Source of the DNA: Candidatus Rifleibacterium amylolyticum
GTDB lineage: Bacteria > Muiribacteriota > Ozemobacteria > Ozemobacterales > Ozemobacteraceae
Assembly: GCA_009917695.1 (NCBI GenBank)
Contig: JAACJG010000008.1
Location: 310,001-374,000 of the forward strand
Length of the DNA: 64,000 bases
Direction of reading: 5' to 3'
Part shown: piece after piece, positions 7,401 to 30,431 of the stretch
Layout: every line of letters begins with the position of its first letter
How positions within the stretch are numbered: position 1 is the stretch's first letter
The notes under the pieces: generated by a model
The model's input: the letters and a program-made list of their open reading frames with translations, nothing else
The model's database searches: none
Told to the model about the DNA's origin: nothing
Program-made: the position numbers and the translations under genes

Positions 7401-7578
7401 GGGTGCCGAGTATCAGTTCAAGAACGATTCGATGCGCGTTACGGCTTCTCTCGGCATAACCGCCCTGCATGGCCGCGATCTGAGTATTGAAGAAATGATC
7501 GAAGAGGCTGACAAGGCGTTATATGTTGCCAAGAGCAAAGGCAGAAACCAGGTGAGAATTGCCCCGGAGGCCATGTAA
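4414..7578 (+). CDS. Membrane receptor diguanylate cyclase (double sensor, HAMP, GAF-like, GGDEF)
   Basis: A 1054-residue protein predicted to make cyclic di-GMP from GTP at the membrane. Order: membrane helix at about 17-37; an extracytoplasmic domain; two close helices at about 330-350 and 360-382; a second extracytoplasmic domain; a helix at about 660-685; HAMP; a GAF-like region (about 740-890); then GGDEF. The signature is GGEEM at about 968-972, an accepted active variant. RSVD lies five residues before it, the RxxD inhibitory site of product-feedback cyclases. FFLATLEKEINRSKRY and LLLDIDHFKKFNDTYGHQAG are the classical neighbouring motifs. Its stop overlaps the next start (TAATG), opening an operon with prepilins, so it may control pilus-like behaviour. 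No Shine-Dalgarno is visible at this start. Confidence 0.93.
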   Translation: MNTNTFNEKAFKSRLSQPTAWIILFVFFAALPILIYYECYGLYIDEQLASNKEAIIKIFHRELTSFGSKATNHQIFLQQLQSYRDGLRRNINEPERNAVLSESLIEELPENTSIIAWDKDGKLQENLSVMKQSGLSREQYEKLIEILLNTHSDFAAGANLQTLHQIENFEKEHADFFATLTPLTGRAFSFTRAFTSPNVMFGSYLATSETFFYWDFINNQNNNQGGFMVFIPLNNLPVTFGISQVLLRDPSATPEFSNGFFDRTSGEIELSYPGLLDAAKQGVGLFIDGLKNPIYYDDWVFFVQPLAESTSVNIFALFSTKSLRLSSESQKNSARTVGLVVMFLAMILFFHSYKLASTTGLSLRKKLAGLFLLCMQLPISILVFLGVQYAMSQERLLSSEAESQLVELVKKIDHSALDHYRTTTEWLKSLKNLPEVQTLDKQKMHETFFEYNRFKQLDSFYLIGLDGSIEFDIDNLKTDNSNRVFIKELGMRILAAGTDKDKNLPGSLSTSAESLFERITRKTGNMHLVIWPGTSRQNFVFTDILKLDNDKRYAIIATLDKTELDRNYLKQVVSQQHRLGPDREVIILKEDDISDAMPRLSATFKANLLPMLSTTRLSNIIETDRVNDENDRLLVAICRGVNTSDFFIGARFSWHKITDTIQMTYLLVILSLIFSLAASIFLITILIREFLTPVYVLSNGAKSIIGGDLNLELPMFARDELGELSTTFNAMTRRLRNRLTELTVLYNLTQKASTTHSQREVFDLAATNLQKHLNAESSGTAWYNEGEGADSIYLAEHLDAKESEAIRNVVKNALRTLQSIAEYSESQERYILGVPLFFEEKKFGAIYLVFSKERGKEKLNLSEDEKSFIETLRHHLSLIIEKQRLFEQAITDGLTRLYLRRFFLATLEKEINRSKRYQLEVSVLLLDIDHFKKFNDTYGHQAGDFVLRETAQRIMESIRSVDTPGRYGGEEMAVILPQTGIKDGFVVAERIRKAIEGAEYQFKNDSMRVTASLGITALHGRDLSIEEMIEEADKALYVAKSKGRNQVRIAPEAM

Positions 7579-8135
7579 TGAGAGCAGGCTTGAAGCGGGG
7601 ATTTACCCTCGTAGAAATTCTGGTTGTTTTATCGCTGGTGGGAGTTCTGGCGCTGCCGTTCACCAACATGTTCATGTTTGGCGTGCGCGGCAGTCAGGAT
7701 AATGCCGAGCATGTTCTGGCCTACAATCTTGCCAGAGACAAAATGGAAGAAATCAAAGGCCTGCCATTCGAGCTGGTCAAATCTGATTACGAAAATTTCA
7801 GAGATGTATACCAGGATCGCCAGGGCTTTGACGAGCCTTATTACAATGACAGCGCTTTTGAGAACTATTTTTCTGACGTTTTTACCGACGAATCCCTCAA
7901 AGACAGCGATCAGAGAATGACCTGGAACCGCCTCAAAATAGCTTATCCAAAAACCTATCTGCGCAATCTGCAGACTTACCCGCCCGACTATCTCAACTAT
8001 CGGCGTGTCGTAAAAGTCGAACGCATAACTGAATCAGCGATGCCATCCAAAATGAAAAAAGTTACAGTTCTGGTTTTTGACAAAGAGGGCAAGAAAATCG
8101 CTGAACTGGCAACCTTGATCGGACAGCATAAATGA
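7578..8135 (+). CDS. Type IV prepilin-like protein (GspI/PilV-like)
   Basis: A 185-residue protein with the prepilin signal KRGFTLVEILVVLSLVGVL at residues 6-24. It has Gly before the cleavage site and Glu5 in the mature chain, then one hydrophobic helix and a polar domain. ARDKMEEIKGLPFE is typical of minor pilins of the PilV/GspI group. The start overlaps the cyclase stop by one base and its own stop overlaps the next prepilin start (ATGA). Expected location: inner membrane, then minor component of a pilus or pseudopilus. Its closeness to a cyclic di-GMP synthase suggests joint expression. Confidence 0.88.
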   Translation: MRAGLKRGFTLVEILVVLSLVGVLALPFTNMFMFGVRGSQDNAEHVLAYNLARDKMEEIKGLPFELVKSDYENFRDVYQDRQGFDEPYYNDSAFENYFSDVFTDESLKDSDQRMTWNRLKIAYPKTYLRNLQTYPPDYLNYRRVVKVERITESAMPSKMKKVTVLVFDKEGKKIAELATLIGQHK

Positions 8136-8758
8136 GCCATACCAGCAAAAAGAGAGCGTTCACCCTGGTCGAGGTTCTTCTCGGCATGTCGCTCACCGTT
8201 CTGGTTGGCGGCATCCTTTATCTGATGCAGACTACCGGCATGTCGACCGTTCAGAAGGGAACCTCCCAGCTGTTGCTGAACTCAGAGATCCGCAACAAGA
8301 TGGAGCGCATTACCAGCGACCTGCGCAACAGCAAAGAAATTCTCGAGATCAAACCCGACCTGGTAAAAATGCGTTGTTACAAGTATTCGGCGACAAACCC
8401 AGACCCGGGCGAAGACGCGCTGATAACCGTGACTTACGAGATTGAACGCGATGAGAAACAGCATGTTCTCTGGCGCACAGAAAACCGCGAAAACCCGGTA
8501 AAGATGCTTTCACTCGACAAGATCGGTGAAGATGTATTTCAGCCTTTTTACGAGGGGCATGATCCGGCCAGTCCGGTTGGCTGGTCTTATTACCCATTCG
8601 ACATGATTTCCAACGATTCAGGGCAAAGACAACGCATCAGTCTGATCAAAATAAAACTCGATCTCAGTCATCAACGGGAATCTGCGGTAGTAGTTACCAG
8701 TGTAAGCCTGCGACCGGCTGCTACCAGAATTCGCCAGCCCAACTGGAAATTCAGATAA
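8132..8758 (+). CDS. Type IV prepilin-like protein (GspJ/PilW-like)
   Basis: A 208-residue protein with KRAFTLVEVLLGMSLTVLVG at residues 7-26, Ala before the cleavage site and Glu5 retained. The mature domain starts MQTTGMSTVQKGTSQLLLNS and continues with RNKMERITSDLRNS, the pattern of GspJ/PilW minor pilins. ATGA overlap with the gene before and TAATG overlap with the gene after place it firmly in the operon. Together with the preceding protein it could prime or tip a pilus-like fibre. Exact subfamily is uncertain. Confidence 0.86.
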   Translation: MSHTSKKRAFTLVEVLLGMSLTVLVGGILYLMQTTGMSTVQKGTSQLLLNSEIRNKMERITSDLRNSKEILEIKPDLVKMRCYKYSATNPDPGEDALITVTYEIERDEKQHVLWRTENRENPVKMLSLDKIGEDVFQPFYEGHDPASPVGWSYYPFDMISNDSGQRQRISLIKIKLDLSHQRESAVVVTSVSLRPAATRIRQPNWKFR

Positions 8759-10824
8759 TGAATTTTCCTGCCTTTCTCGGAATCAGCGCAATCGTCATAC
8801 AGGCGATTCTGGCTTCAGTGGTCATGGCAAAAGACCCGGGCAAAACCGAAAACCGGCTGTTCAGCCTGCAACTGCTGTTGTTCTGTGCCTGGAGCGGTGC
8901 TGAAGTTTATCTGATTTATCATGGCGTCGATAAGTTCGGCATCAAACTTCTTTTTACGCCAGCTCTTCTGCTGACATACTTTTTCTGCATATTTACGGCA
9001 GTTTATCCAGAACATCAGCCTGAAGCCAGCATTATCAAGAGCCGAAAGCACCTGATCGGATATTTTCTGCCAGCAGCAGCTCTGCTTTATTTTCTCTGGA
9101 CCGACAGGCTGATTAAAGATTTTGGCAGCCTTGCCGTCGGTTTTTCACTCGATCTCGGCCGCTTCGAATTCATTGTCAAAGGCGTAGTGATAGCTTATCT
9201 CTTTCTTTCACTGTCCACACTTTCCAGCAGCCGCCGCAAGGCTGAAACCACGATACAGATACGACGTCTGCGTTATACCTTTGCGGCAATGCTTCTGCCG
9301 GTAGCCGCCGGGTCAATCGTCATAGCATTCAGCAAATGGTTCATCGGCGGGGCAACCATGTATTCTTTCGGGCTGTTTCCGGTTCTGAGCATTATCATGA
9401 GCATCATTCTCGCCTACACCATGCTCAGATACAACCTGATGGAAATAGATCTGATTTTTTCGACAGGTCTTGTCTACACCCTGCTTACCGCGATTATGGC
9501 AGGCACCATGGAGCTTTTTCAGGAGCTGATGCAGAACATTCTCGATTTCTCCAGCACCTGGACCAAGATTATCACCGTTCTCATCATAGCCGCAATTTTT
9601 TCGCCGGTTAAAGACCTGTTGATAAGGCTTGTAGATCGATTCTTCGGCAGACAGACGTTTGATTCGGCTACTGTCATGCAGACAATACTTGCCGAGCTGC
9701 GAAAAATGCCAGATCAGCACCGGCTTTTTGCCCGCTTTCTCAGCGAACTGCAGCTGGTTCTTGATTATTCTGGCGCAAGCCTGCAGCTTGAAGACCAGCA
9801 GCAGATATGTGTTCCAGAAACTCTCAAAACCTGTGAAGTCAGTCGGGAGTTTGCCGGATTGCCGTCAGATGTCAACGAAATCGATGCCGTGATTCAGCAC
9901 TTCATCAGTAACCAGGATCGTGCTCTGGCTGATGCTGCGCGCAATCTGAAAGCCTGCGACATACGCCATATCTTCAATCTGGCCGACAACGATCGCCATT
10001 ACGGCTTTCTGCTGCTCAATGCGAAGAACACCAGGGTTCCTTACACCACCACGGAAGTAAACCTTATTATGGGTCTCGTCAGCGAAATCCCTCACCTTCT
10101 CGCCAATCTGGCGATGATAGCGCGGCTCATCGAACAGGAAAAGGCAGGACAGGAAATAGACTGGGCCCGCAAAATGCTCGAAGCCATTTCTGCCAGCAAG
10201 GTTACCAGATTCTGCGACATGCCGATAACCAGCTTTGCATCATTGTCTACCGAGATAAAGGGCGACATGATCGACATATGTGAAGAAGAAAAAAACAGCT
10301 TCATCGGTGTTTATGACGCCTTTCATCACGGAATTCAGGCTGTTCTCACACTTAATATCATGTTTGCAGTTATGCGCTGCTTTAACGATAACAGAACTCA
10401 ACTGCGCCATGTTAACCGCGTATTGCGACTGTTCTCGCAGCAGCTCTGCTCGGCGGTCACCATAGTCAGAGTAGACGGTCGCCACATTGAACTGGCCAAC
10501 GCCGGCAATCCATCGCCTCTGATCATTTCAGCAGCAGGCGTAAGGCCTCTTTTCAGCGACAACTCAAGGCCGGCTGGTTATCACGAAGACTTCGAGCCAC
10601 AGCATCAGTCGTTTGAAATGGGCAAAAGCGAGCTGTTGTTCTGTTCGACGAATGGTATTTATAAGGCATTTGAGCAGCTGCACGGCAAGACGCTCGAACA
10701 GTTCATCACAGAAAACACCGGCAGCCTTGCACATCTGCCCGAGAAAGTCGCCGATGCAATCAAGTCCTTGACGAACCAGAATTTTTCTGATGACATAACA
10801 TTTATAACAGCAGGTCAGCTATGA
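8758..10824 (+). CDS. Multi-helix membrane protein with degenerate SpoIIE-type phosphatase domain
   Basis: A 688-residue protein. Residues 1 to about 300 form seven or eight hydrophobic helices resembling the 7TM sensor region of some histidine kinases. A GAF-like region follows, then a C-terminal region of about 190 residues that aligns by eye with SpoIIE/PP2C phosphatases: KGDMIDI for GGDYYD, VYDAFHHGI for GDVSGHG, ANAGNPSPLI for ANAGHPPPL, CSTNGIYKA for YTDGVxE, and SDDITFI for DDDITLL. Asp in GDMID and in the last motif are kept, but the TDG Asp is Asn and the AGH His is Asn. It may therefore bind its partner without normal catalysis. Both ends overlap neighbours (TAATG, ATGA), between prepilins and ispG. 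Confidence 0.78.
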   Translation: MNFPAFLGISAIVIQAILASVVMAKDPGKTENRLFSLQLLLFCAWSGAEVYLIYHGVDKFGIKLLFTPALLLTYFFCIFTAVYPEHQPEASIIKSRKHLIGYFLPAAALLYFLWTDRLIKDFGSLAVGFSLDLGRFEFIVKGVVIAYLFLSLSTLSSSRRKAETTIQIRRLRYTFAAMLLPVAAGSIVIAFSKWFIGGATMYSFGLFPVLSIIMSIILAYTMLRYNLMEIDLIFSTGLVYTLLTAIMAGTMELFQELMQNILDFSSTWTKIITVLIIAAIFSPVKDLLIRLVDRFFGRQTFDSATVMQTILAELRKMPDQHRLFARFLSELQLVLDYSGASLQLEDQQQICVPETLKTCEVSREFAGLPSDVNEIDAVIQHFISNQDRALADAARNLKACDIRHIFNLADNDRHYGFLLLNAKNTRVPYTTTEVNLIMGLVSEIPHLLANLAMIARLIEQEKAGQEIDWARKMLEAISASKVTRFCDMPITSFASLSTEIKGDMIDICEEEKNSFIGVYDAFHHGIQAVLTLNIMFAVMRCFNDNRTQLRHVNRVLRLFSQQLCSAVTIVRVDGRHIELANAGNPSPLIISAAGVRPLFSDNSRPAGYHEDFEPQHQSFEMGKSELLFCSTNGIYKAFEQLHGKTLEQFITENTGSLAHLPEKVADAIKSLTNQNFSDDITFITAGQL

Positions 10825-11912
10825 ATCAAAATAACCCGGTAAGACGCAGAAGCAGACAGATTATGGTTGGAACAGTTGCCGTCGGGGGCAACGCGCCGGT
10901 CAGCGTGCAAAGCATGACCAAAACTGATACGCGCGACGTTGCGGCGACACTTGCTGAAATCAACCATCTAAAAATAGCCGGCTGCGACATAATCAGGCTG
11001 GCAGTGCCTGATTCTGCGGCGGCCAAGGCTCTAAAGGAGATCTGCTCAGCCTCACCCATGCCCGTAATTGCCGACATCCACTTCGATCATGAACTTGCTC
11101 TCGAAGCCATTCAAAACGGAGTACAGGGCCTCAGGCTGAACCCCGGCAACATCAGAAGTGAAGAGAAAATTCGCGAAGTTGCCGCCGCCGCTGCCGACTG
11201 GCAGGTGCCGATAAGGGTTGGTGTTAACGCAGGCTCTCTCGACCCGGCGATCAAGCTCAAATATGGCGGCGTCACCGCTGCCGGACTCGCCGAGTCGGCA
11301 ATGAACGAAGTCAAGCGTCTCGAAAAGTGTGGCTTTGAGCTCATAAAAGTTGCCATAAAGGCCTTCGATCTGCGCACCATGTGTGAAGCGGTCAAAATCG
11401 CAGCAGCATCCTGCGATTATCCGTTGCATCTGGGGGTCACCGAATCCGGGCTACCCGAAGACGGTATCGTCAGATCAGCCATGGGCATCGGCAGTCTTCT
11501 GCTGCAGGGCATTGGCGACACCATCAGGGTTTCTCTTACCGGCGAATCGACTCTGGAAGTTGTCACCGGGCACAAGATTCTACAAGCTGCCGGCTTACGC
11601 AAGACCGGCCCGGTAATCGTATCCTGCCCGACCTGTGGCCGATGCCAGATTCCACTACAGGAAATCGCGCGCAAGGTTCAGCAACGTCTGACTGGACTCA
11701 GCGAATCATTTCAGGTGGCAGTGATGGGGTGCGCAGTTAATGGCCCCGGAGAAGCTGAACAGGCTGACTTTGGCATAGCCGGCGGCAAAGAGAGTGGTTT
11801 GATTTTCAAACACGGCAAGGTAGTCAGAAGCCTGCCCATGGACAAGCTTGTCGATGGCCTGATCGAAGAAATATTTACCAGTCTGCAGACCTCAAAAAAG
11901 GAAGAAAAGTGA
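10821..11912 (+). CDS. ispG: 4-hydroxy-3-methylbut-2-enyl diphosphate synthase (flavodoxin/ferredoxin-dependent)
   Basis: A 363-residue IspG (GcpE). It converts 2-C-methylerythritol 2,4-cyclodiphosphate to HMBPP, the penultimate MEP-pathway step, in the cytosol. The TIM-barrel half is clear: VSVQSMTKTDTRDV near residue 28, then IADIHFD, LRLNPGNI and PIRVGVNAGSLD. The [4Fe-4S] ligands are Cys269 and Cys272 in SCPTCGRC and Cys304 in MGCAVNGPGEA, nearly the same numbering as in E. coli. Length is normal for the short bacterial form. The ATGA overlap with the SpoIIE-like gene and a TGATG overlap with the next gene mean it is cotranscribed with pilin and signalling genes, an unusual setting for a housekeeping enzyme. 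Confidence 0.96.
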   Translation: MNQNNPVRRRSRQIMVGTVAVGGNAPVSVQSMTKTDTRDVAATLAEINHLKIAGCDIIRLAVPDSAAAKALKEICSASPMPVIADIHFDHELALEAIQNGVQGLRLNPGNIRSEEKIREVAAAAADWQVPIRVGVNAGSLDPAIKLKYGGVTAAGLAESAMNEVKRLEKCGFELIKVAIKAFDLRTMCEAVKIAAASCDYPLHLGVTESGLPEDGIVRSAMGIGSLLLQGIGDTIRVSLTGESTLEVVTGHKILQAAGLRKTGPVIVSCPTCGRCQIPLQEIARKVQQRLTGLSESFQVAVMGCAVNGPGEAEQADFGIAGGKESGLIFKHGKVVRSLPMDKLVDGLIEEIFTSLQTSKKEEK

Positions 11913-13784
11913 TGAGACACACATATTTTTTCAACAATCCAGCAAGATTGGGTGCCTATCTGGTCTTAGCCCTGCTTACAGCTCTTTTGCCAGCAGCATC
12001 GATAGCACAGATCAACGAACAGGCGGTCAGTTTCCGCACTCCCTCTATCGAGCTGGTCTTTCAGCCGCCACTGCGCACCGGAATCAACTCTGAAAATCCA
12101 AGCAATATCGAGGTTCCTCGCCTGAACCTGCTGGTTAACCTGTTCGAGAATTACCTGCAGTATCTCGGTCGCCTGCAAAAAATAGCTACCGGGACTTCAT
12201 TGCGATTAGTCTATGCTCCTGAACTGGCAATAGAAAACGGCACTGAAGATCACAAAGCGATCAGACTCAATGAGACCGGCCTTAATACATGTCTCAGCCA
12301 GATAAACCAGTATTTTAAGGATCGTGACCTCACCGATTCGACCTATCACCTCGAAAGTGCCGACTCACTGTTCACCATACCAGATCAATTGCCTCGACCA
12401 ACCAGCAAGGTTGCCATACGTACTGAACTGACCAATCATTCGTATTTTCAGAAAAGCCTCGAACCTGACACTGATTTCTGTGTCATTGACGACAACCGCG
12501 TCATAACGGCACGACCTTTTCAGCGCAGCAACAGGCTTTTTTTTGATGACCGATGCCGACAATGTCTGTCGCGCCGAACTTTTACTCGATCAGGCCCGCA
12601 ACTGGTATGGCGATCTGAGTGCTTCTGGCGACGGCAGGTTCCTGGCTTTCACCGATGGCATGCTGCCTATGATCATGCCGCTTACTGCCAGCACAAGCAA
12701 AAGACTTTTCGAAAACGACAACCTGATACTTCTGTGCATGTACTGGTCACCACAGAAACCGGTTCTGGCCGGCCTGCTTCTAGACAACTCCACGCAGGCA
12801 CGCAGCTTTTTTCTCTATGACGCCGAGTCCGGCAAAATGCTGCAGGCTGGCGACACACAGCTGGCTGAAGAGGCTGACTTCATCAACCCGCATGTTTGCT
12901 GGTCTCCCGATGGAAAGCGACTGCTGCTGACGTCGGCCCGCTCAGTACACCTGATCGATCTCGAAGCCAACAAGACATTTTTACACGCCGCCAGAGTGCC
13001 GAACGAAATCGCCGAAATCGTCTGGTCTGATGACAGCAGTTCGTTTGCTCTCGTCGAAGTTATCGGCCAGGCAAGACAACGCTACATCTTTGACGATCTC
13101 GACTATCGCAAGTGCGTGCTGCACCGTTACCGGATAAAGCCGGATTTTTCAATCAACGAGGACCATGCACAACGCGTTGAATCACGAAATACCATCAAGC
13201 TCGTATCATTCTGGACTAACGACCGCGTGCTTTATCTCGAAGGACGCCTGATAAGCAAGCGCCTCAACACCCCCTTCTGGGATCTCAGCTCAGCCTTCAC
13301 AGCCAATCTTACTGCCGGCCCGGCAACCTCAGTCAGCCGCAGCTCTGATGGCAAAGACGCTGTCGGCGCCCCATCAACCCTGCCCATGCAGTATCTGTAT
13401 GTATTCCGCAACCTCGACGGCAAGTTCAAAAATATCTACGATGCCGGTTTTAATCACAGCAACAACCTGTATACCGACAAATTCAACAATATCTGGTTCA
13501 TTGGCCTGCGCCGCCCCGAAGAAATCAGTCAGCAGCAGAATGTCTACAGCCACCGCCAGTCGCCCTACCCCTTTCCCGAAAGCAATGTATCGGTATTCAG
13601 CGATATTCCAGCCAGCAAAATGACATTACTGCTCAAATTTCTGGAAGAGTACAACCTGCGCCTGCTCAGGTTCAACAGCAGTATAAGCCGCATATTCACG
13701 CTTGCCAATTTCGGCGGGCCGCTTAACCTGTGGTCAGGCGACCTTCGCAAAATCGTCGAAGGCCTCGGCAACGAAGAGAACTGA
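11912..13784 (+). CDS. Secreted beta-propeller-like protein, reading frame broken at a T8 run
   Basis: Two overlapping frames make one protein. From 11912 (ATG in a TGATG overlap with ispG) a signal peptide and about 200 residues are read up to a run of eight T at 12537-12544. In that frame translation continues into low-quality sequence and stops at 12820. The +1 frame carries on from the T run to 13784 as coherent sequence (MTDADNVCRAELLLDQARNW, CWSPDGKRLLLTS, FNNIWFIGLRRPEE). Seven T, or ten, would join them into about 620 residues. The C-terminal part has WD40/TolB-like blades. The break may be a sequencing error, a real mutation, phase variation or slippage. Function is unknown; it is presumably periplasmic. 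Confidence 0.72.
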
Positions 13785-13818
13785 GATAAGCCGACAAAGC
13801 TGATTTTTCGCAATAAAC

Positions 13819-13847
13819 TTGCCTCTTGTCTCGTTTTTTCTTATACT
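13819..13847 (+). promoter_or_regulatory. Sigma70-type promoter for the 13.9-22.2 kb gene group
   Basis: TTGCCT, a 17-base spacer and TATACT lie about 35 bases upstream of the ATG at 13883, in the only sizeable gap between this gene group and the preceding operon. Confidence 0.7.
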
Positions 13848-13882
13848 GTCTTGACTTAAAAACATGGCAAGGGGGAAGGCGA

Positions 13883-15520
13883 ATGAAAAGATTGAGCTTT
13901 TTGATGATGGCCTTTGTGCTGCTGACTGTTTGTGCAGCAGTGAATGGTGCCGAAGTGCTTTATGACGATACACATGCACAGACAGCGGGTAACGCTGACT
14001 GGATACCGGAAGGCGCTTATTCTGAGATGGCCGACATGCTCAAGGAGAACGGCTTTACAATCACCAGCCTCAGCAAGGTTGCCGGTCGAAACGGCGAAAT
14101 CACTGCTGATATTCTCAAAGACTTCGCAGCCATAATTCTTGCCGAACCCAATAACCCTTATTCTGACCAGGAACAGAAAGCCATCTGCGAATTCATTTTC
14201 AATGGTGGCGGTCTTTTTATCATCGGTGACCACGGTGGCGCCGATCGCAACAACAACGGCTGGGATGCCGTAAAAGTATTCAACACCTTTGTTCCGAAGT
14301 TTGGTTTCAAATTTCAGGGCAATACCATTTATGAATCGCCGCTTTCCGGCCCGAACAACAACAGCCACCCGGTAATGTTCGGCGTGCGCGCAGTCGGCGC
14401 CTGGGCCGGTTCGACTTTTGACATCGTTGAGGGCGAAGGCAAAGCCGTCGGCCTTATCGACAGCCGGATATCGAAAGCCCCCTATGTAGTAGCCGCTGAA
14501 TACGGCCAGGGTCGCGTCGTCGCTATCGGCGACAGTTCACCCTTCGATGACGGCACCGGCAGCCCCAACGGCAGCAAGAACAAGTTGCACGACAGCTACG
14601 ACTCGTTCATGTATTCGCATCCACAGCTGGCTTACAATGCCATGGCCTGGGCTACCGGCAAAGAAACCGGCAAGCGTATTCCCTCACGCATAGTTCCAAT
14701 GTTCAACGAAGCAAAGGCCTCTGAAAAAGCGATCAACATACTGATCGACGCCGCGCACGGCAACGCTTCTTCAGACAAGATGAAAACCTTCGAAAAGCAC
14801 ATGAAACGCAATGGGCTGAAGGTTTATTTTACCCTCAACCTGATCAAGCCTGAAATGCTCAAGAACTTCGGCACGCTCATACTGCCCGACCCGTCGTTCC
14901 GCTATATCGACACTGAAGCTCAGGCAATCGCCGACTGGTTCATGGCCGGTGGCAACCTGATCATGGGCGCCGCCTGGGATTCATCGAAGCTGCGCGGCAC
15001 CGCCACGCTCAATTTCGTTCTTGGCAAAATCGGCGCCGTGATGCGTTTTAACGACGACCAGGTCTGGGATGAAAAAAACAAGACCAACAAACCATGGGGC
15101 GTGCTTTCTCGTGGCATCAAAAAAGATCACCCGGTTACCGCGGGCGTTACCACAGCCATTACCTGGGGCACCTGCTCACTCATCGACCGCAATAACCAGC
15201 CTCTGACCGAAGAAGCCGGTGTTGAAATTCTCGTCAGCGCCAACCCCGAAAGCTTTAATAAAGACGGCGACAAGCGGGTTCCGGCGGTTCTCTACCCGAA
15301 GGGCATGCCCATTGCGATCATGGCCATCGAAAAAGTGGTCAATGGAACGCTGGTTATGATCGGCACCTGCAACTTTACTGATTACCAGTATCCTGACAGC
15401 GACATCAACATGTCGATGCCCGGACCACCCCCGTTCACCCACGAAACTCCGCAACTCTGGAACAACCTGCTGCGCCAGCTGGCAAAACAGCCGACCAGCA
15501 GCCGCAACAGAAGAAGATAA
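13883..15520 (+). CDS. Secreted protein with two class-I amidotransferase-like (ThuA/DUF4350-like) domains
   Basis: The start at 13883 follows a GGGGGAAGG ribosome site and opens a signal peptide (KRLSFLMMAFVLLTVCAAVNGA); an upstream in-frame ATG at 13826 overlaps the promoter. The 545-residue product contains two similar halves. The first has VLYDDTHAQTAG, FAAIILAEPNNPYS and FNGGGLFIIGDHGG. The second has ILIDAAHGNASS, FGTLILPDPSFRY and MAGGNLIMGAAWDS. Both follow the Rossmann pattern of GATase-like domains (ThuA, GldG, DUF4350) without an obvious nucleophile Cys, so binding rather than catalysis is likely. It directly precedes a sugar ABC importer, and a role in periplasmic handling of a carbohydrate is a reasonable guess. 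Confidence 0.75.
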   Translation: MKRLSFLMMAFVLLTVCAAVNGAEVLYDDTHAQTAGNADWIPEGAYSEMADMLKENGFTITSLSKVAGRNGEITADILKDFAAIILAEPNNPYSDQEQKAICEFIFNGGGLFIIGDHGGADRNNNGWDAVKVFNTFVPKFGFKFQGNTIYESPLSGPNNNSHPVMFGVRAVGAWAGSTFDIVEGEGKAVGLIDSRISKAPYVVAAEYGQGRVVAIGDSSPFDDGTGSPNGSKNKLHDSYDSFMYSHPQLAYNAMAWATGKETGKRIPSRIVPMFNEAKASEKAINILIDAAHGNASSDKMKTFEKHMKRNGLKVYFTLNLIKPEMLKNFGTLILPDPSFRYIDTEAQAIADWFMAGGNLIMGAAWDSSKLRGTATLNFVLGKIGAVMRFNDDQVWDEKNKTNKPWGVLSRGIKKDHPVTAGVTTAITWGTCSLIDRNNQPLTEEAGVEILVSANPESFNKDGDKRVPAVLYPKGMPIAIMAIEKVVNGTLVMIGTCNFTDYQYPDSDINMSMPGPPPFTHETPQLWNNLLRQLAKQPTSSRNRRR

Positions 15521-15530
15521 CAGCCTTTTG

Positions 15531-15570
15531 CGGGCGCCACTTATGCATCAGGTAAGCGGCGCCCGTTTTT
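15531..15570 (+). terminator. Hairpin with T run between the amidotransferase-like gene and the ABC importer
   Basis: CGGGCGCC (15531-15538) pairs with GGCGCCCG (15558-15565) across a 19-base loop and is followed by five T. The importer genes start 28 bases later without a separate clear promoter, so this may be a partial terminator that lowers their expression. Confidence 0.72.
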
Positions 15571-15597
15571 AAACCACTATTCAGGATAACAAGAGCA

Positions 15598-16476
15598 ATG
15601 GCAAATAAACGCAACAAAGACTGGTCGGCTTACCTGTATCTGATGCCGGTAATAGTCATACTGGTCATTTTTCACGTACTTCCCATTTTTTACTCGCTGG
15701 CTGTGAGTTTTTACGAATGGGATCTGATTGGCTCTCCGGAATTCGTCGGAGCTTCGAATTACCTGCGACTCGCTGACGACCCGATGTTCTACAAATCCTT
15801 GTGGAACACAGTGTATTATGCTGCCATCAGCGTGCCGATGTCGATCTTCTTTTCGATGCTGATCGCCATGCTTTTGAACAATCCGATTTCAGCCATAGGT
15901 ATTTACCGCACCGTATATTTTATACCGGTTATCACATCGATCAACGCCGTTGCCATTGTATGGAACTTCATCTATCACCCTGACTTCGGTCTGCTCAACA
16001 AAATTCTCGATATTTTCAGCATCGACCCGCAAACCTGGCTCCAGGATCCTTTCTGGGCGATGCCCTGTATCATTTTCATGAGCGTCTGGAAAGGCCTTGG
16101 CCACAACGTCATCATCTTTCTTGCCGGTCTGCAGAACATACCCAAGCATCTTTACGAAGCAGCCCGCATCGACGGTGCCAGTCGCTGGCAGCAGTTCAGA
16201 CACATAACCTGGCCGCTGCTTTCGCCAACGACCTTTTTTGTCTTCACGATTTCGACGATCGGTTCGTTCCAGGTGTTCTCTCAGGTCTACATGATGACAC
16301 CGCGCGGTGGCCCGCTCAAGAGCACCATGGTCATCGTCTACTATCTCTACCGCAAAGCTTTCGAGCAGTTCGAATTCGGCTACGCTCTGGCCATAGCTTT
16401 TACGCTGTTCATGATCATCTTCGCCTGCACTCTTTTCAACAAGCTGTATCTTGAAAAGAAAGTGCATTACTCATAA
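15598..16476 (+). CDS. Sugar ABC transporter permease (MalF/UgpA type)
   Basis: A 292-residue inner-membrane protein with six predicted helices, the usual size for the first permease of carbohydrate (CUT1) importers. The N-terminus reads SAYLYLMPVIVILVIFHVLP. The cytoplasmic EAA loop that contacts the ATPase is EAARIDGASRWQQFRHITWP at about residue 188. It forms a heterodimer with the next permease and receives substrate from the binding protein two genes down. The substrate cannot be told from sequence; CUT1 systems take oligosaccharides, polyols or glycerol phosphates. No ATPase gene is nearby, so a shared MsmK/UgpC-type ATPase elsewhere is expected. Confidence 0.93.
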   Translation: MANKRNKDWSAYLYLMPVIVILVIFHVLPIFYSLAVSFYEWDLIGSPEFVGASNYLRLADDPMFYKSLWNTVYYAAISVPMSIFFSMLIAMLLNNPISAIGIYRTVYFIPVITSINAVAIVWNFIYHPDFGLLNKILDIFSIDPQTWLQDPFWAMPCIIFMSVWKGLGHNVIIFLAGLQNIPKHLYEAARIDGASRWQQFRHITWPLLSPTTFFVFTISTIGSFQVFSQVYMMTPRGGPLKSTMVIVYYLYRKAFEQFEFGYALAIAFTLFMIIFACTLFNKLYLEKKVHYS

Positions 16477-16489
16477 AGGGGTATCAACA

Positions 16490-17464
16490 ATGCAGAACAT
16501 ACTCAAAGTCAAAAACCCCGCCCATGTCGCGATTCATACGCTGCTCATCGTTGGTGGCTTCTTCATGCTGTTTCCCTTCGTCTGGATGATCTCGACTTCA
16601 TTCAAAGGCGACGACGAGATTCTCACGACCAGCAAAGAGATCGTTCTTCTGCCGGATGTCGCACGCCCCGATTTTCTCAATTCGCAGGAAGATCGCGACC
16701 GTATCGAGCGCCGGGCCGAGCGCCAGCGCCTATGGGATAAAGAGCAGGAAAAGCCGGCGGCCGAACGCGACAAAAAAGTTCGCGCGCCCTTCAAATGGTA
16801 TGATAACTACGTCTACGCCTGGAAAGCGCAGCCATTCTATCGCTTCTTTCTCAACACCCTTTTTGTTACCATTACGGTTACTGCGGTATCGTTGTTTTTT
16901 GCATCACTGGCGGCTTATGCCTTCGCGTTTTTCAACTTTCCCTTCAAAGATCTCGCTTTCATGCTGATGCTCGGCACCATGATGCTGCCGCAGCAGGCTC
17001 TGTTGATACCGAACTACATCTTTTTGTCGAAACTCGGCTGGATAAACACCTATCTTTCGCTGATCGTGCCGTGGCTGGCATCTGCCTATTCAGTCTTCTT
17101 TCTGCGCCAGTTTTTCAAACAGCTGCCAAAAGACCTGTTCGAGGCTGCCACCATCGACGGTTGCACCCGTTTTCAGTTTTATTACATGGTCGTTCTGCCG
17201 CTGAGCAAGCCGCCAATGGTCACGCTCGGCATTTTCTCCTTTCTCGCCAACTGGAACAGCTTCGTCTGGCCCCTGATCGTTACCAATGACACGAATCTGC
17301 GCGTCATTCAGGTAGGTCTGAGCTACTTTTCGAGCGAAGCCGGCACCCGCTGGGGCCCGCTGATGGCCGCGTCAACCATGACGATACTGCCGCTGGTAAT
17401 CATGTATTTCCTGGCGCAGAAACAGTTCGTCGAGTCGCAGGCCACCACAGGAATGAAGGAGTAA
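16490..17464 (+). CDS. Sugar ABC transporter permease (MalG/UgpE type) with a charged insertion
   Basis: Start at 16490 after AAAGGGG; longer in-frame starts overlap the first permease. The 324-residue protein has the MalG order: helix 1 (VGGFFMLFPFVWMISTSFKG), a periplasmic loop, five further helices and the EAA motif EAATIDGCTRFQFYYMVVLP. The loop after helix 1 carries an extra strongly charged segment at about residues 62-99 (QEDRDRIERRAERQRLW and so on) that typical MalG proteins lack. It looks helical or coiled and could be specific to this lineage. It pairs with the preceding permease, and the binding-protein gene follows after two bases. Confidence 0.92.
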   Translation: MQNILKVKNPAHVAIHTLLIVGGFFMLFPFVWMISTSFKGDDEILTTSKEIVLLPDVARPDFLNSQEDRDRIERRAERQRLWDKEQEKPAAERDKKVRAPFKWYDNYVYAWKAQPFYRFFLNTLFVTITVTAVSLFFASLAAYAFAFFNFPFKDLAFMLMLGTMMLPQQALLIPNYIFLSKLGWINTYLSLIVPWLASAYSVFFLRQFFKQLPKDLFEAATIDGCTRFQFYYMVVLPLSKPPMVTLGIFSFLANWNSFVWPLIVTNDTNLRVIQVGLSYFSSEAGTRWGPLMAASTMTILPLVIMYFLAQKQFVESQATTGMKE

Positions 17465-17466
17465 AT

Positions 17467-18822
17467 ATGCGCAACTTTCTGATTGCTACATTTTTCTGCT
17501 GGCTTATCATAGTATTCGCGATCATCGATGACGACAAAAAGAGTGCTGGCGCGGCTCTCGTCGACTCCGGATCAGAAGGCCGAACCCAGGTGGTATTCTG
17601 GCATGCCATGGGCGGTCCGCTCGGAATCGTCATGGACGACCTGGTCACCCGTTATAATAAAAGCCAGAACAACTACTTCATCAAGAGTGTCAATATGGGC
17701 AGCTACGACACTCTCGCCAAAAAGGTTCTCGCTTCGCTGGTGGCAGAAGAGGCCCCCGATATTTCGCAGAACTACGAGACGCTGACCAAAAAATTCATCA
17801 GACATCACAAGATAGTCTGCCTCGACGACCTGATCGCTTCCGAATCTGAAGACATCAAAGCCGACATCATACCGGTGTTGCTCGAGAACAACACCTTCGA
17901 TGGCAAGCTCTATTCCTTTCCCTTCAATAAGAGCGTTCCGGTGCTGTATTATAACAAGGACATCTTCGCCCGGGTCGGCCTCGACCCTGAGCAACCGCCG
18001 CGTACGCTCGAAGAAATGGTCAAGTATTGCCGCACCATCACCGAGTATCATCGCAACACCCCTGGAGCTGACCGCTCTGTCTATGGCTACGGGTGCAGCA
18101 AGGCTAACGTCTGGTCATTTCTCAATCGTATTCTGCAATATGGCGGCAACATCGTCAGCGAAGACGGTCACAAGTCGCATTTTGCTGACCAGGCTGCCAT
18201 CAATGCGCTGGCCTATCTGCAGAACATGCTGAAAGAAGGCATTGCCCGCGAAGGACAGGGATTCGACCATCAGAACGACTTTATTGCCGGCAAATGTGCG
18301 ATTATCGAAAGCAGTATTGTCAGCAAGGTCTTCATGGAGAGCAGCATAGAATTCAACTTCGGCGTAGCACCGCTGCCCGGCTATATCATCAAGCCAAATC
18401 CTGAAATGACGATCAACGAAAGTGAAATCAACCGCGGTGTCATTCTGTCTGGCAGTAACATCAATATCTTCAACAACGGCGATCCCAAAAAAATTGCCGG
18501 AGCCTGGGACTTTGTCAAATGGTTCACCTCGACCGAAATCGGGGCGGAATGGAGCATCAGAACGACTTACCTGCCAGTACGCAAATCTTCGCTGGCCAGC
18601 GATTACATGCAGAAAGCCCTGCGCGAAGACCCCAATATGGCGGCACCTTACGTTCAGCTTGACTACTGCCATTTCGAGCCACGCCTCAGCGTCTGGTTCG
18701 AAGTCCGTGACCTGATGGCCGATCACTTAGAAAGGGCGACACTCGAAATGGGGCCGGCAGAAAAATACTGTCAGCAGATGGCCAAAGATGTGGACGCAAT
18801 ATTAAGACATGCTTCCCACTGA
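17467..18822 (+). CDS. Extracellular solute-binding protein, family 1 (carbohydrate ABC importer)
   Basis: A 451-residue binding protein. The N-terminal helix (RNFLIATFFCWLIIVFAII) is a signal or anchor; no clean lipobox follows, so it may stay membrane-tethered. The family 1 pattern is visible in VVFWHAMGGPLGIVMDDLV near residue 41, then YDTLAKKVLASLVAEEAPDI, YSFPFNKSVPVLYYNKDIF and AGAWDFVKWFTSTEIGAEWS. This is the UgpB/MalE-like fold that delivers a sugar or sugar derivative to the two permeases just upstream. The gene follows the MalG-type permease by two bases and its 3' end overlaps the DHH phosphoesterase gene by 14 bases, so all are one transcription unit. Confidence 0.92.
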   Translation: MRNFLIATFFCWLIIVFAIIDDDKKSAGAALVDSGSEGRTQVVFWHAMGGPLGIVMDDLVTRYNKSQNNYFIKSVNMGSYDTLAKKVLASLVAEEAPDISQNYETLTKKFIRHHKIVCLDDLIASESEDIKADIIPVLLENNTFDGKLYSFPFNKSVPVLYYNKDIFARVGLDPEQPPRTLEEMVKYCRTITEYHRNTPGADRSVYGYGCSKANVWSFLNRILQYGGNIVSEDGHKSHFADQAAINALAYLQNMLKEGIAREGQGFDHQNDFIAGKCAIIESSIVSKVFMESSIEFNFGVAPLPGYIIKPNPEMTINESEINRGVILSGSNINIFNNGDPKKIAGAWDFVKWFTSTEIGAEWSIRTTYLPVRKSSLASDYMQKALREDPNMAAPYVQLDYCHFEPRLSVWFEVRDLMADHLERATLEMGPAEKYCQQMAKDVDAILRHASH

Positions 18823-24696: not shown

Positions 24697-27564
24697 ATGG
24701 CAAACGGACAAAGCAGATTCGCCCGGTTTGCGTTCATTTATGCCCTGCTCGTAGTAACCCCCGTATTGTTTTCTCTATTGCTCTGCCTGCACATTATCGA
24801 TCATTACAGCCATTTCTGGCAGGAAAAGGCTGCCGAGATCACTGAGACAAAAGCATCAGAACTCGTTCGACAACTTGATTCAGAGCAGATTTTTCTACCC
24901 CACTTCAGGGAGCTGACTGAAAAGATTCTCTCTCTGCCAAAACTCGAAGAAAAAAAGATAGTCGAGCTGGCGGAAGATACTTTTGCCAGAATATCGCAGC
25001 GCTTTTTCGTTTATGTCTTCGATACCCGGGGAAAAATGTTAAAAACCGGACTGGCGCCTGAAGACACCGAAGCCGGTATCGATTACCTCTGGCGATTTGC
25101 CCATGACGACAGCTACGAAGGCGAAGGGCGCGAGCGCCGCGGCGACTACGGCAAACTGGTCGGGCGCTATTTCTCACCACGCAATATCAAGCACAGCAAT
25201 GATGTCTGCCATTCCGTCGAGAATCCCAGAAGCACCGGACTGCTTTACCATAAAAAACGCCAGGCATACAGTGATGATAAAAGCGGCGTCATGTATTTTC
25301 TCGATCTGAACATAGAATTCGAGCATCATCTTCAGCAGAAAATCGACCATTACAGCTCGGTTGATGAACCGGTTTTCTTTGAAAGAGCCGACGGCACCTG
25401 GAAGGGCGCTTCTGATATTGAAGCTCTGGCGCCGACTGTTGCGAAGCTGGGCTATACCCGCACAAAGAATGTGGTAGTTCACAATGACTTTCTCTGGCGA
25501 CGTGTTGGCTTTCGTGATTTTCAGCTGTATTTCGGCAAAAAATTGTCGCTCGATTATTACTCCCGGGCCAAAGGACTGGCGGTTTTATTCAGCGTCCTGC
25601 TGCTGGCTCTGAGCCTTGTCTATCTGTTGCGCAATCTGTTCAGCGGTCAGGGCTTACGGCTTTCGATACGCTACAAACTCATCACCATTTTTGTATTTGC
25701 TGTTTATCTGCCGATTCTCGGACTGGTAATGGTAAGTTTTAATGGCCTCAACGACCGCCGCACAGTTCTTGAGAACGATGCCCGCAAAGGGATGCAGGAT
25801 ATTCTCTACAAGATCGACGCCGACTTCGCCGGCAAAGAAGACGAAATACTGGCCACTTTCGAACGTCTCTACAACGACAGAGACTGGCAGGATCAAATTA
25901 CCGACGACTGGCTGCACAACGACCAGCTTTTGCGCAAACACGCCCGTATAGCGCTTGAAGGCGAGAATTTTTTCAATCATCTCGACATTCGAAATATCCG
26001 TCTGGAACAGGTTCATTCAACTGCGCGCGGTATCGCCAACGACAGAATTAAAGAGATAAATCGCATTATCAGCCTTATCTGCCTGGAGCGCTTCATGCCG
26101 GAACAGATGTCAAAAAACCGGGTAAAACTTCGCCAGTCTGATTTCATTCTCAAAAACATGATGGAGAACCCGGTGCTTGGCTTCAGCAGTTTTTACGAAC
26201 AACCTGGCCGGCTTGTCGAGATGGAATTTGAAGGTTCCAGCTTCTACTGGTACTGGAACTATTATCCTGACGCCGGTGACAGTGTAGCGTTTTTTTCAGG
26301 CAATACGAGAGTGCATTTCAATGTCGAAAGTTTTTTAAACAACGTTTTGCAGAAACGCTACAATCTCGGCAACACGGCACTTCATCTTGCCGCTTATTTT
26401 CCGGCGCAGCAGGCATGGACACCGGAATCCGCCGGCAGCGAAAACGATCTGGTCAAGCTGGTAAAGCTCACCGAAATCAGCAAAACCCTGGAAACCGGCA
26501 GAATCAATTATGAGGGTAAAAAATTTCTCGCCACCTCCCTCCCCGGAATCAAGCTCAAGGGCGCCATAATATCTTGCCTTTTTCCGCAGTCGCAGATAGA
26601 CGGTATTATTGCCGGTCAGCGCATTCAGATTTTCCAGGGAATGGCCCTTATCCTCATAATTTCAGTGTTTACCGGTCTGTTGCTCTCGAAATATTTTCTG
26701 CAACCGTTAGGAGAGCTCAACCTTGGCATGAAAGCTCTTCGTCAGCGCAATACCGACTTTCGTGTAGAGATCGGCAGCCAGGACGAACTGGGCGAACTGG
26801 GAGACACCTTCAATCAGATGATGGTTGAGGTAAAAGAAATGCTGCTGGCCGGAGCCGTTCAGCAATGCCTGATCCCAGAAAAATTCCCTGACATCGCCGG
26901 TTATGACTGTATAATTTACAACAAAATGGCTACCGACGTTGGTGGTGATTATGCCGACGTTTTTTCGCTTGGCGACGACCGCTATCTCGTCGTGCTCGGC
27001 GACGTAACCGGTCATGGCGTGAGCTCATCGATACTGACTGCGATGGTCAAGGCCCAGGTTTTCAGGTTTGCCAGAAAAAACCGAAGTTTGAGCGAAATTC
27101 TCAAAAGCCTCAGCGAAATGATTTTTGAACTTCTGCGCTATCGCAAGCTCATGACTTTTTGTGCGCTCATTTTCGATGCCCGCAATCACAGCTGTCAGTT
27201 TGCCAATGCCGGGCATCCTTTTCCTATCTGGTGCGACGCAGATGGAAAGATCAAGGCTCTCGACAAAGAAGCTCTGCCGCTGGGCGTTTCACCTCGTCGC
27301 AGCAATTATATAACTGTCGAGAGCAGCTTTGAAGCTGGCGATATGATGCTTCTTTATACCGATGGCATAGCAGAAGGCGCCGGGCCGGATGGTGAAGCCT
27401 TTGGTTTTGACCGGGTCAGGGAACTCATCGTCAGCAACCGCTCACACAGCAGTGAAGAAGTTAAAAACACCCTGCTCAGCGAATTCTGGCAACATTATAA
27501 ACGTGAAGAACTCGATGACGATCTGACCTTCGTTATAATCAGGCGGCGCCGGCAAGACGTCTGA
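24697..27564 (+). CDS. Membrane receptor serine phosphatase (double sensor, HAMP, SpoIIE/PP2C), first copy
   Basis: A 955-residue receptor starting at 24697. Order: helix at about 8-30, extracytoplasmic domain, paired helices at about 305-325 and 332-352 with LSIRYKLITIFVFAVYLPIL, second extracytoplasmic domain, helix at about 640-665, HAMP, then a SpoIIE-type PP2C domain. Metal-binding motifs are complete: DVGGDYADVF (about 749), LGDVTGHGV (about 768), FANAGHPFPIW, LLYTDGIAEG (about 886) and DDDLTFVII (about 941). Such proteins dephosphorylate anti-anti-sigma-type (STAS) partners. It begins 22 bases past the recA terminator, so its promoter is not obvious. Its 3' end overlaps the next, opposite gene by 26 bases. 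Confidence 0.92.
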   Translation: MANGQSRFARFAFIYALLVVTPVLFSLLLCLHIIDHYSHFWQEKAAEITETKASELVRQLDSEQIFLPHFRELTEKILSLPKLEEKKIVELAEDTFARISQRFFVYVFDTRGKMLKTGLAPEDTEAGIDYLWRFAHDDSYEGEGRERRGDYGKLVGRYFSPRNIKHSNDVCHSVENPRSTGLLYHKKRQAYSDDKSGVMYFLDLNIEFEHHLQQKIDHYSSVDEPVFFERADGTWKGASDIEALAPTVAKLGYTRTKNVVVHNDFLWRRVGFRDFQLYFGKKLSLDYYSRAKGLAVLFSVLLLALSLVYLLRNLFSGQGLRLSIRYKLITIFVFAVYLPILGLVMVSFNGLNDRRTVLENDARKGMQDILYKIDADFAGKEDEILATFERLYNDRDWQDQITDDWLHNDQLLRKHARIALEGENFFNHLDIRNIRLEQVHSTARGIANDRIKEINRIISLICLERFMPEQMSKNRVKLRQSDFILKNMMENPVLGFSSFYEQPGRLVEMEFEGSSFYWYWNYYPDAGDSVAFFSGNTRVHFNVESFLNNVLQKRYNLGNTALHLAAYFPAQQAWTPESAGSENDLVKLVKLTEISKTLETGRINYEGKKFLATSLPGIKLKGAIISCLFPQSQIDGIIAGQRIQIFQGMALILIISVFTGLLLSKYFLQPLGELNLGMKALRQRNTDFRVEIGSQDELGELGDTFNQMMVEVKEMLLAGAVQQCLIPEKFPDIAGYDCIIYNKMATDVGGDYADVFSLGDDRYLVVLGDVTGHGVSSSILTAMVKAQVFRFARKNRSLSEILKSLSEMIFELLRYRKLMTFCALIFDARNHSCQFANAGHPFPIWCDADGKIKALDKEALPLGVSPRRSNYITVESSFEAGDMMLLYTDGIAEGAGPDGEAFGFDRVRELIVSNRSHSSEEVKNTLLSEFWQHYKREELDDDLTFVIIRRRRQDV

Positions 27565-30400
27565 GCACAACTATCGTAAGGTCATCGTCTGGTTCGGCAC
27601 CTGCCAGCCAGCCGTCATATTCAACCAGAAGCCGGCTCGACACGGTATCGGCATCTTCGGCCGGCATTTTTGCCAGAATCGCCTTCAGCCTCTCGTAGCC
27701 ATACATTTCCTGGCGGAAATTCACTACTTCTACCAGGCCGTCCGTATAAAATACCAGGTACTCGTCAGGCTGAAGCATGAATTCATGCAGCTTCAGTCCC
27801 CGCAATTTCGGAACAGCGCCAACCGGCAGATGCACAGCCCTGAGGTCGCTGCATTCGCCAGTTCGGCTGACCTTGACCGGAAAGTTGTGACCGGCATTGA
27901 CAAAGGAACCGCGCCCGCTCTTCAAGTCTATCATGGCTGCGAATACCGTGATCATCTTCCTGACTGAAGGCTGATGAAAGTAGGTATAAACGGTATGATT
28001 CAAATCTTCGAATATCTCAAGCAGCCCGCGGTCTTCTTTGAGACCCTGATACACAACCGCTTTGGCCATAGCCATGACCAGAGCCGAACCGACGCCGTGT
28101 CCGGTAACATCGCCGATGACCACGCAGACCCGGTCACGATCGAGCACACGTACATCAAAATAATCGCCGCCAACGGCAGAAGCCATACGGTTCGCGAAAC
28201 TGACCTGATAGCCAGACACTGATGGGGGCGCCGAAGGCAGCAATGACTCCTGAACGTCTTTCGCCAGCTGCATTTCTTTGAGGTCGGCTATCATGTGATT
28301 GAAGTTATCAGCGAGATCGCCAAATTCGTCTTTCTGGGTGCTGACGATTCGGAAATCGGGATTGCGTGATTTGATAGCGTTTACGCCTTCGCCAAGTCGC
28401 GCAATCGGCAGCAGAAAAACGTCAGACAGCAGCCAGCCGGCAGTAAGTGCCAGCAGAAGAAACAGCACAATGCCACTGCGAATCAGCCGCCCCTGCCCAG
28501 TAATATCTGTAGTAACAAGCTGTCTCGGATAAAACGCGAACAGACAGTAATCGCTGGCAAATCTTCCGTTCACACCAGTTACCAGATATTCGGCTCCGCC
28601 AATTTTTACGGTTGCATCAACTGGTTTATCGCTGAATCTCGTCTGTTTTACGATGTCTTTGAGAACATTGGCATCTTTAAGCGGTGCCGGCAGCCATTCG
28701 CCCGTATGATTTGAGCTTGCCGCAAGAATGTAAGGCGCAGCTGAATTACTGGTGCGCGAGTCAAGCATGCGTTGGCTGACAAGACGTTTTATCAGGCGAG
28801 AAGCTGATTGCACAATGAAGGTATAAAATGGCTGATCGCTTCTGGAACGAAAAATTTCCCAGAATATGAACATTGGAATTGGTCCGAATTCCATTTTATG
28901 AACTTCGCCCGGCCTGACAAAAAACACATTCATGCCGGCTTCGGGGCTTCTGATAACCATGTCGAGCACAGGATCGATGGCATCGGTAAGCGACGTACCA
29001 AGCCGATTATCTATGCAGTATCGGGAAAACGCGTCTGAAACCTCACGCATGCCCTCGAAAAACAGCTCATTCTGCTGAAAAAAGATCATATCGGCCTTGC
29101 GGGCATCGCGCAACTCGATACTGATCAGATCATTTGCTTCGATGCGAGCATGAACTTCTGACTTGAAAGTTTCGTCAAGCGAGGCCAGACCTCGACTTAG
29201 ACTGGCAAAATCTTCAGTGTAGCTGGTTCCGGCATTACGAAAAGACTCATCCATGGCAAACAACAGTTGCCGACTATGGTTGGCAACTGTCGCCATCAGT
29301 GTCTGCTCTCTATCGTCAAGATAACGATAGCCGAGATATGCAAAACCCATTATCGGCATCATTACTGCCATCAGAAACAGGGCCAGCAGTTTGATGCGCA
29401 GCGACAGATAAAAGCTGCCACTGGCCAGAGATCTGAAATAAGCCGCTATTGCCATTATTGCCAGCAGCAGAAGGCCAGCATACATATAGCGCTGCAAGCG
29501 GTTATAATAAGAGACGGTCGTGCGGGCTGCAGCGATCAACCACATGCCTTCTATTTTCCGGCCAGCCCAGACACGTTCTCTTTCATCAAAGACATGATTC
29601 TGCCCGAGAAAAGCCAGCTCCCTGAAAAGTTTGCCAGCCATTGCCATGTCGGTTGGCTCACGACCAAAATCACGAACATCTTCTTCGCTGCTCGCCGCAA
29701 AAGCGGCGTCAAAGTTCTTCAAATGTTGCTTTTTCGCCTTTTCCAGGCGACGCTCAACTGAAGGGACATCCCAGAAAACCATGAGAATTCCACAGGCAGG
29801 ATTGGCCGGATCGTTGATCCAGTAGATCATACCATGCTGATGACGGGCTATTATTGGCAGACAGCTGTCTCGACTCTCAAGAAATCTGGAGATTCTGAAC
29901 TCAGAACCGACAAAGGCTTTAAGCTGCTTCTTGATTCGCTGAAACATGCGATTCTGTTCGGTTGGGGTGCTTCGCACCAGCTCCCAGAGGCGGGTCGCAA
30001 TATAGCGTGAGCGCAGTGGCACTTCTGACGGTGTAACCAGTGCACCTTTCTGGTCAAATGCATAGAGGTCAAACTCTCCCGGCAGGTAATTCTGCAAAGC
30101 GCGATAATACTGACTGAAATCTTCGGTTCCTGACAGGGACTGCCTGAGTTTCAGCCAGGCACCTCCACCGATTTTGCGCAGAAAAGTTGTCGAATCGAGT
30201 TCGTATTGAGCCAGAATGATGTTCCGCTCAAGCCCGGCGATAACCTGGTCAAAATGCTTGGTGCGCTCGTTGGCAATGGTCTGATGACCGAGAAAACCGG
30301 CAATAAAAATTGGCAGCAGGACAAACAGGCAGATAGGCGCAAAATGTATTAAAAATCTGCGCCAGAATGGGGCTGTCACGGTGCCGTCCTTTTTTTCCAC
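27539..30400 (-). CDS. Membrane receptor serine phosphatase (double sensor, HAMP, SpoIIE/PP2C), second copy
   Basis: A 953-residue paralogue of the facing gene with the same architecture: N-terminal helix, extracytoplasmic domain, paired helices with LSLRIKLLALFLMAVMMPIM, second extracytoplasmic domain, helix, HAMP and SpoIIE-type PP2C. Catalytic motifs are intact: AVGGDYFDVRV (about 744), VIGDVTGHGVGSAL, FVNAGHNFPV, VFYTDGLVEVV and DDDLTIVVL at the C-terminus. The start is a GTG at 30400 with GGAG ten bases upstream. The sensor domains have diverged far more than the phosphatase, so the two probably sense different signals and may act on the same STAS partner. Tail-to-tail overlap of 26 bases suggests an old inverted duplication. 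Confidence 0.92.
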   Translation of the reverse strand: MEKKDGTVTAPFWRRFLIHFAPICLFVLLPIFIAGFLGHQTIANERTKHFDQVIAGLERNIILAQYELDSTTFLRKIGGGAWLKLRQSLSGTEDFSQYYRALQNYLPGEFDLYAFDQKGALVTPSEVPLRSRYIATRLWELVRSTPTEQNRMFQRIKKQLKAFVGSEFRISRFLESRDSCLPIIARHQHGMIYWINDPANPACGILMVFWDVPSVERRLEKAKKQHLKNFDAAFAASSEEDVRDFGREPTDMAMAGKLFRELAFLGQNHVFDERERVWAGRKIEGMWLIAAARTTVSYYNRLQRYMYAGLLLLAIMAIAAYFRSLASGSFYLSLRIKLLALFLMAVMMPIMGFAYLGYRYLDDREQTLMATVANHSRQLLFAMDESFRNAGTSYTEDFASLSRGLASLDETFKSEVHARIEANDLISIELRDARKADMIFFQQNELFFEGMREVSDAFSRYCIDNRLGTSLTDAIDPVLDMVIRSPEAGMNVFFVRPGEVHKMEFGPIPMFIFWEIFRSRSDQPFYTFIVQSASRLIKRLVSQRMLDSRTSNSAAPYILAASSNHTGEWLPAPLKDANVLKDIVKQTRFSDKPVDATVKIGGAEYLVTGVNGRFASDYCLFAFYPRQLVTTDITGQGRLIRSGIVLFLLLALTAGWLLSDVFLLPIARLGEGVNAIKSRNPDFRIVSTQKDEFGDLADNFNHMIADLKEMQLAKDVQESLLPSAPPSVSGYQVSFANRMASAVGGDYFDVRVLDRDRVCVVIGDVTGHGVGSALVMAMAKAVVYQGLKEDRGLLEIFEDLNHTVYTYFHQPSVRKMITVFAAMIDLKSGRGSFVNAGHNFPVKVSRTGECSDLRAVHLPVGAVPKLRGLKLHEFMLQPDEYLVFYTDGLVEVVNFRQEMYGYERLKAILAKMPAEDADTVSSRLLVEYDGWLAGAEPDDDLTIVVLRRLAGAA

Positions 30401-30402
30401 TG

Positions 30403-30431
30403 TTGCGTTGCTCCGCTCAGTCGTGTATCAT
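30403..30431 (+). promoter_or_regulatory. Candidate promoter of the PopT-like gene
   Basis: TTGCGT, a 17-base spacer and TATCAT. The leader would be about 100 bases and contains a small hairpin (CTGATA/TATCAG at 30440-30457). Confidence 0.45.

Follow-up and report, generated by a model that had tools for sequence, protein, structure and literature searches.

The locus considered here raises the question of whether a gene that is split into two reading frames at a run of eight T residues represents an on/off switch, a site of recoding, a pair of separate genes, or an ordinary gene in which the run differs in length by a single base. The gene lies in a window of 64,000 nucleotides (positions 310001-374000 of contig C8) from the genome of Candidatus Rifleibacterium amylolyticum, which comprises 5.39 Mb in 35 contigs and is referred to as G000 in comparisons with other genomes. 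On the forward strand of this window, ispG (10821-11912; GcpE match, 4e-137) ends with a stop codon that overlaps the ATG start codon, at 11912, of the gene under study. The 5' part of this gene, read in its own frame (11912-12536), comprises a signal-peptide-like start, an N-terminal alpha/beta region, and the first strands of a predicted beta-propeller, with strand positions taken from the model of a homologue; the T run (T8, 12537-12544) coincides with a frame change of +1, and the 3' part (12545-13784), which encodes most of the propeller, ends with a TGA at 13782-13784.

The reading frames and the homology of their translations agree on the position of the break. The upstream frame runs from the ATG at 11912 through T8 to a stop at 12818-12820, such that a ribosome that stays in this frame would read an out-of-frame tail of approximately 91 codons (12545-12820); the downstream frame, shifted by +1, is open from 12507 to the stop at 13782-13784, and the third frame reaches a TGA immediately, at 12544. 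Homology of the upstream frame to the intact proteins of four congeners (G002, G003, G004, and G005) extends to 12544-12571, being lost within 27 bases past the run, and homology of the downstream frame begins at 12519. As the interval in which homology switches between frames contains T8, the frame change lies at or beside the run, and no additional frame break or stop was found within either half. These results bear out the preliminary description of this locus, which had proposed that two out-of-step halves of one gene meet at the T run and that the +1 frame is sensible from there to 13784; its estimate of a product of about 620 residues is likewise in agreement with the homologue in G005, which has 621 residues.

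The upstream and downstream frames are parts of one gene that is conserved in the family. When the 3' part was used as a query (72% and 74% identity to G002 and G005, respectively), the gene was found to be encoded in 22 of the 24 genomes searched for the family (Riflebacteria / Ozemobacteraceae), this genome included; among the 24 genomes searched, a match to the 3' part was absent only from G011 and G019. In 19 relatives the gene is a single open frame of 622 to 799 codons with no stop. The copy in G001 ends at a contig end before the junction, and the copy in G009 is split over two contig ends, with the larger piece open across the junction; the junction is thus read straight through in all 20 relatives that hold it, and the break, for which no conserved counterpart was found in these 20 homologues, is a singleton that occurs in 1 of 21 junction-holding genomes when this one is counted. 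The 5' part also matches 20 loci in relatives by tblastn, in step with the 3' part, and each of 18 separately fetched loci forms one open frame. Outside the family, only weak and short matches were obtained, in 4 of 15 genomes of the phylum, and named database matches of the 3' part were mostly from Candidatus Riflebacteria or Ozemobacteraceae. An uncharacterised protein family that is present in 22 of 24 genomes of a bacterial family may merit study in its own right.

The fold of the gene product was assigned from the intact G005 homologue, which was modelled with a pLDDT of 81.4 and a pTM of 0.81; a helix at the N-terminus, an alpha/beta region, and a part rich in beta structure are predicted. 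VIA-align matched residues 169-613 of this homologue to propellers, with Z scores of up to 18.3; the matches include many unrelated propellers as well as DPP IV-type N domains, and because they are many and alike, they name a fold and no function. A propeller fold for the gene product is thus supported by the model. The resemblance to TolB and to the N domains of DPP IV-like proteins (2ojh, 5yp1, and 1orv) consists of the predicted propeller at approximately residues 169-613 of the intact homologue (e.g., for 5yp1_A, a Z score of 16.7 and an rmsd of 4.3 over 309 aligned residues), with sequence identities of 6 to 16% among the matches listed. Unlike DPP IV, the G005 homologue has its own N-terminal alpha/beta region and lacks a C-terminal peptidase domain; it ends at residue 621, just past the propeller, and no peptidase catalytic domain was present among the seven Pfam families matched by 18 members of the family. 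The hydrolase domain that follows the propeller in S9 / DPP IV peptidases was thus not found in this homologue. By sequence, Pfam propeller models matched the 3' part below their gathering scores (PF25174, 32.9 versus 305; PF12894, 19.6 versus 22.9; PF07676, 10.6 versus 20.9), as did two more Pfam models; Pfam gave no match for the 5' part, NCBIfam contained no family for either part, and comparison of the family alignment with solved structures yielded four weak matches. The product is probably exported, as suggested by a hydrophobic N-terminus ending in SIA-Q that was judged by eye to be signal-peptide-like. Of the earlier proposal of an exported, propeller-like protein, the propeller has accordingly gained the predicted fold of an intact homologue in addition to sub-threshold Pfam matches, and export stands as probable only. 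We infer that this exported protein of the propeller type may act in binding or as a scaffold. By coordinate arithmetic, the junction corresponds to residue 211 of the G005 homologue, which falls inside a propeller strand (residues 207-215) and not at a domain border; judged by this model, neither part could form the whole propeller.

With regard to the age of the break, the N and C halves were analysed separately by comparison with G002 and G005. The pN/pS values of the N half were 0.310 (against G002) and 0.251 (against G005), and those of the C half were 0.241 and 0.225, respectively, as compared to 0.263 and 0.242 for the reference pair G005-G002; this test is coarse, as synonymous sites are near saturation (pS of 0.64 to 0.81 between G000 and its congeners). 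In the N half, each of the three lineages had 4 residue changes of its own; in the C half, G000 had 5 such changes, whereas G002 had 10 and G005 had 9. Relaxed selection was thus not seen in either half by pN/pS or by lineage-specific changes relative to G002 and G005, which indicates that the break is recent or only apparent (i.e., a miscounted run); an older frameshift should show more decay than was measured.

The frame accuracy of the assembly was surveyed over 795 kb of this genome (the whole of C8 and 400 kb of C1) against ORFs of G002, using ORF sets that were generated mechanically and include some spurious members, and by an approach that breaks near gene ends escape. On C8, 265 of 336 G002 ORFs were matched at 50% identity or more, 252 of them over at least 80% of their length in one piece; on C1, 161 of 245 were matched, 149 over at least 80%, leaving 13 and 12 ORFs, respectively, with no single match over 80% of length. 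Eight G002 ORFs were flagged on C8 and all were inspected: the gene described here was the sole clear frame break, six others turned out to be neighbouring genes without a break, leader sequence ahead of a start codon, or spurious ORFs, and the remaining one, at about 120.6 kb, reflected an indel between the genomes in a short stretch in which no gene could be established and was left uncounted. The two ORFs flagged on C1 were both intact neighbouring genes, such that, of the 426 matched G002 ORFs, the propeller gene alone shows a clear gene frameshift. In the reverse direction, six G000 ORFs were flagged on C8, namely the propeller gene and five that would represent breaks in G002, and two were flagged for C1/C24, one of which falls within a stretch inspected for flagged G002 ORFs. 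When overlapping ORFs on the same strand were scanned for runs within the overlap, two candidates were obtained on C8, one being the propeller gene, and five on C1, for two of which the open frames of relatives have their start or end at nearly the same position. Finally, 35 runs (A/T of at least 8, C/G of at least 7) were checked, of which 17 were marked as spanned by a match; T8 at the junction was so marked solely because the downstream frame is, by chance, already open 17 bases ahead of the run, and three others lie outside the surveyed ORFs. The remaining 13, all within C8 ORFs, were each spanned by one match in one frame, weakly (31%) for a run of seven C at 179052. An unspanned run at 153727 had matches in two frames that represent two neighbouring genes, with a shorter gap between them. 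As for other runs in the window, A8 at 20973 was spanned, T8 at 33080 is located in a gene whose match covers nearly its full length, and A9 at 2877 falls in the gap between genes that have matches. Errors of the homopolymer-frameshift kind are thus rare in this assembly.

Taken together, we consider it highly probable that this is an ordinary conserved gene for a probably exported beta-propeller, with an incidental T run whose length differs by one base in this genome alone. This difference would have an even chance of being a miscount of the run in the assembly, a possibility that had been raised previously and stays live here. A polymerase-slippage mutation that arose very recently in the strain or population would be a plausible, if tentative, alternative cause. 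The apparent accuracy of the assembly weakens a miscount relative to a real mutation, though it does not remove it. A passage in PMC9262707 places long-read consensus errors in homopolymers and states that, with R10.4 data, nearly all runs shorter than 11 (the vast majority) are resolved. According to section 29 of PMC3711429, singleton frameshifts confirmed by homologues are expected to reflect errors of sequencing and not genuine indels; the present case resembles those described there in that intact homologues confirm a break found in a single genome, but that survey (2013) covered 1106 complete genomes, whereas a 35-contig assembly, presumably a MAG, was used here. Were the gene read literally, its product would be a truncated N-terminal fragment that ends in a nonsense tail and, by implication, no complete exported propeller would be made. 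For annotation purposes, the locus is best treated as one member of a conserved family with a suspect base count, rather than as a switch or a pair of genes.

The preliminary description had pointed to phase variation, i.e., reversible switching of an exported protein within the population by slipped-strand mispairing at the T run, and several features could be cited for this mechanism. T8 is a homopolymer inside a coding region whose length sets the frame, and the frame break occurs at this run; the product is probably exported, a run of seven T occupies the same codons in G002, and A/T tracts in coding genes have been argued, in PMC2831843, to constitute a general inactivation system in prokaryotes. 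Homopolymer phase-variable genes such as H. pylori sabA likewise combine a coding homopolymer at a frame break with a probably exported product; unlike in that type of gene, the tract here is not conserved, is not near the gene start, and is known from one assembly. In the eight relatives for which the junction codons were printed, the run is T7 in G002, T5 in G005, G016, G009, and G014, and shorter in G003, G004, and G012 (i.e., five T or fewer in seven of eight). Neither is the run unusual in number: T8 was observed five times in the window on both strands versus 6.42 expected, and A/T runs of at least 8 were observed 31 times on C8 versus 30.9 times on average (range 19-43) in 20 Markov sequences. 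The tract was thus not found to be kept in these eight relatives or enriched beyond chance on C8, and the T run is incidental, its residues being conserved in the genus while the tract is not; the encoded residues explain the run. The break also falls at about codon 209 of roughly 620, one third into the gene, within a propeller strand and not near the gene's start, while PMC2831843 places long tracts closer to the 5' end. On these points, and with the junction open in every relative that holds it, phase variation as an evolved trait was rejected, and a switch of this kind is unlikely at this locus, unsupported rather than excluded; that the run is genuinely length-variable in this species, with the family-conserved exported propeller switched on in only some of the cells, appears quite improbable. 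If true, it would represent an on/off propeller protein in a phylum for which a full-text literature search found no paper on Riflebacteria together with phase variation.

Restoration of the frame in some transcripts, by RNA polymerase slippage or by +1 ribosomal shifting at the run, would fit the unchanged constraint on the 3' half, which could reflect continued use, and a passage in PMC1088944 suggests that, in some IS elements, even a run of eight A may allow productive slippage during transcription. The step needed here is +1, which requires an RNA with one base fewer or two more; on A/T runs, however, single-base insertions make up most of the insertions that prevail, and an association of deletions with these runs is rare, as reported in PMC5574713. 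Rescue by transcriptional slippage is therefore disfavoured, a ribosomal shift of -1 would lead to the TGA at 12544, and, as the break is common to none of the 20 junction-holding relatives, nothing is conserved as a recoding site. Programmed recoding was rejected for these reasons and must be regarded as very improbable. Even harder to credit is a pair of separate genes, in which an exported N-terminal protein would be followed by an independently started cytoplasmic C-terminal protein. A TTG at 12543 or an ATG at 12546, the latter with an AGG approximately 10 bases 5' of it, could start the downstream frame, but the cut would run through the middle of a strand in the propeller of the homologue model, the downstream piece has no signal-peptide-like start, and one chain is encoded in the 20 junction-holding relatives; two genes were rejected on these grounds.

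Other features of the window and of contig C8 were also observed. The propeller gene lies directly 3' of ispG here and in the four congeners compared, and G002, G003, G004, and G005 all share the gene order of this block (10821-18822 in the window), in which ispG and the propeller gene are followed by an ABC_transp_aux/ThuA-like gene, two ABC permeases (BPD_transp_1), and a solute-binding protein. The preceding stretch (7578-10824) contains two genes with N-terminal methylation motifs (pilin-like), followed directly by a gene for a 688-residue SpoIIE-type protein. Outside the window, a run of nine C at position 242430 of C8 lies in frame within a conserved gene, with 85% identity to G002 in the sequence flanking the run, and is not present at the matching position in G002; judged by length, this run is a better candidate for a hypermutable tract than T8. 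Finally, genes at 24709-27549 (forward strand) and 27542-30427 (reverse strand) form a convergent pair of approximately 950 to 960 codons each, both of which are kept in G002 and G005; the copies of the 24709-27549 gene in these two genomes match the 27542-30427 gene at about 26% identity.
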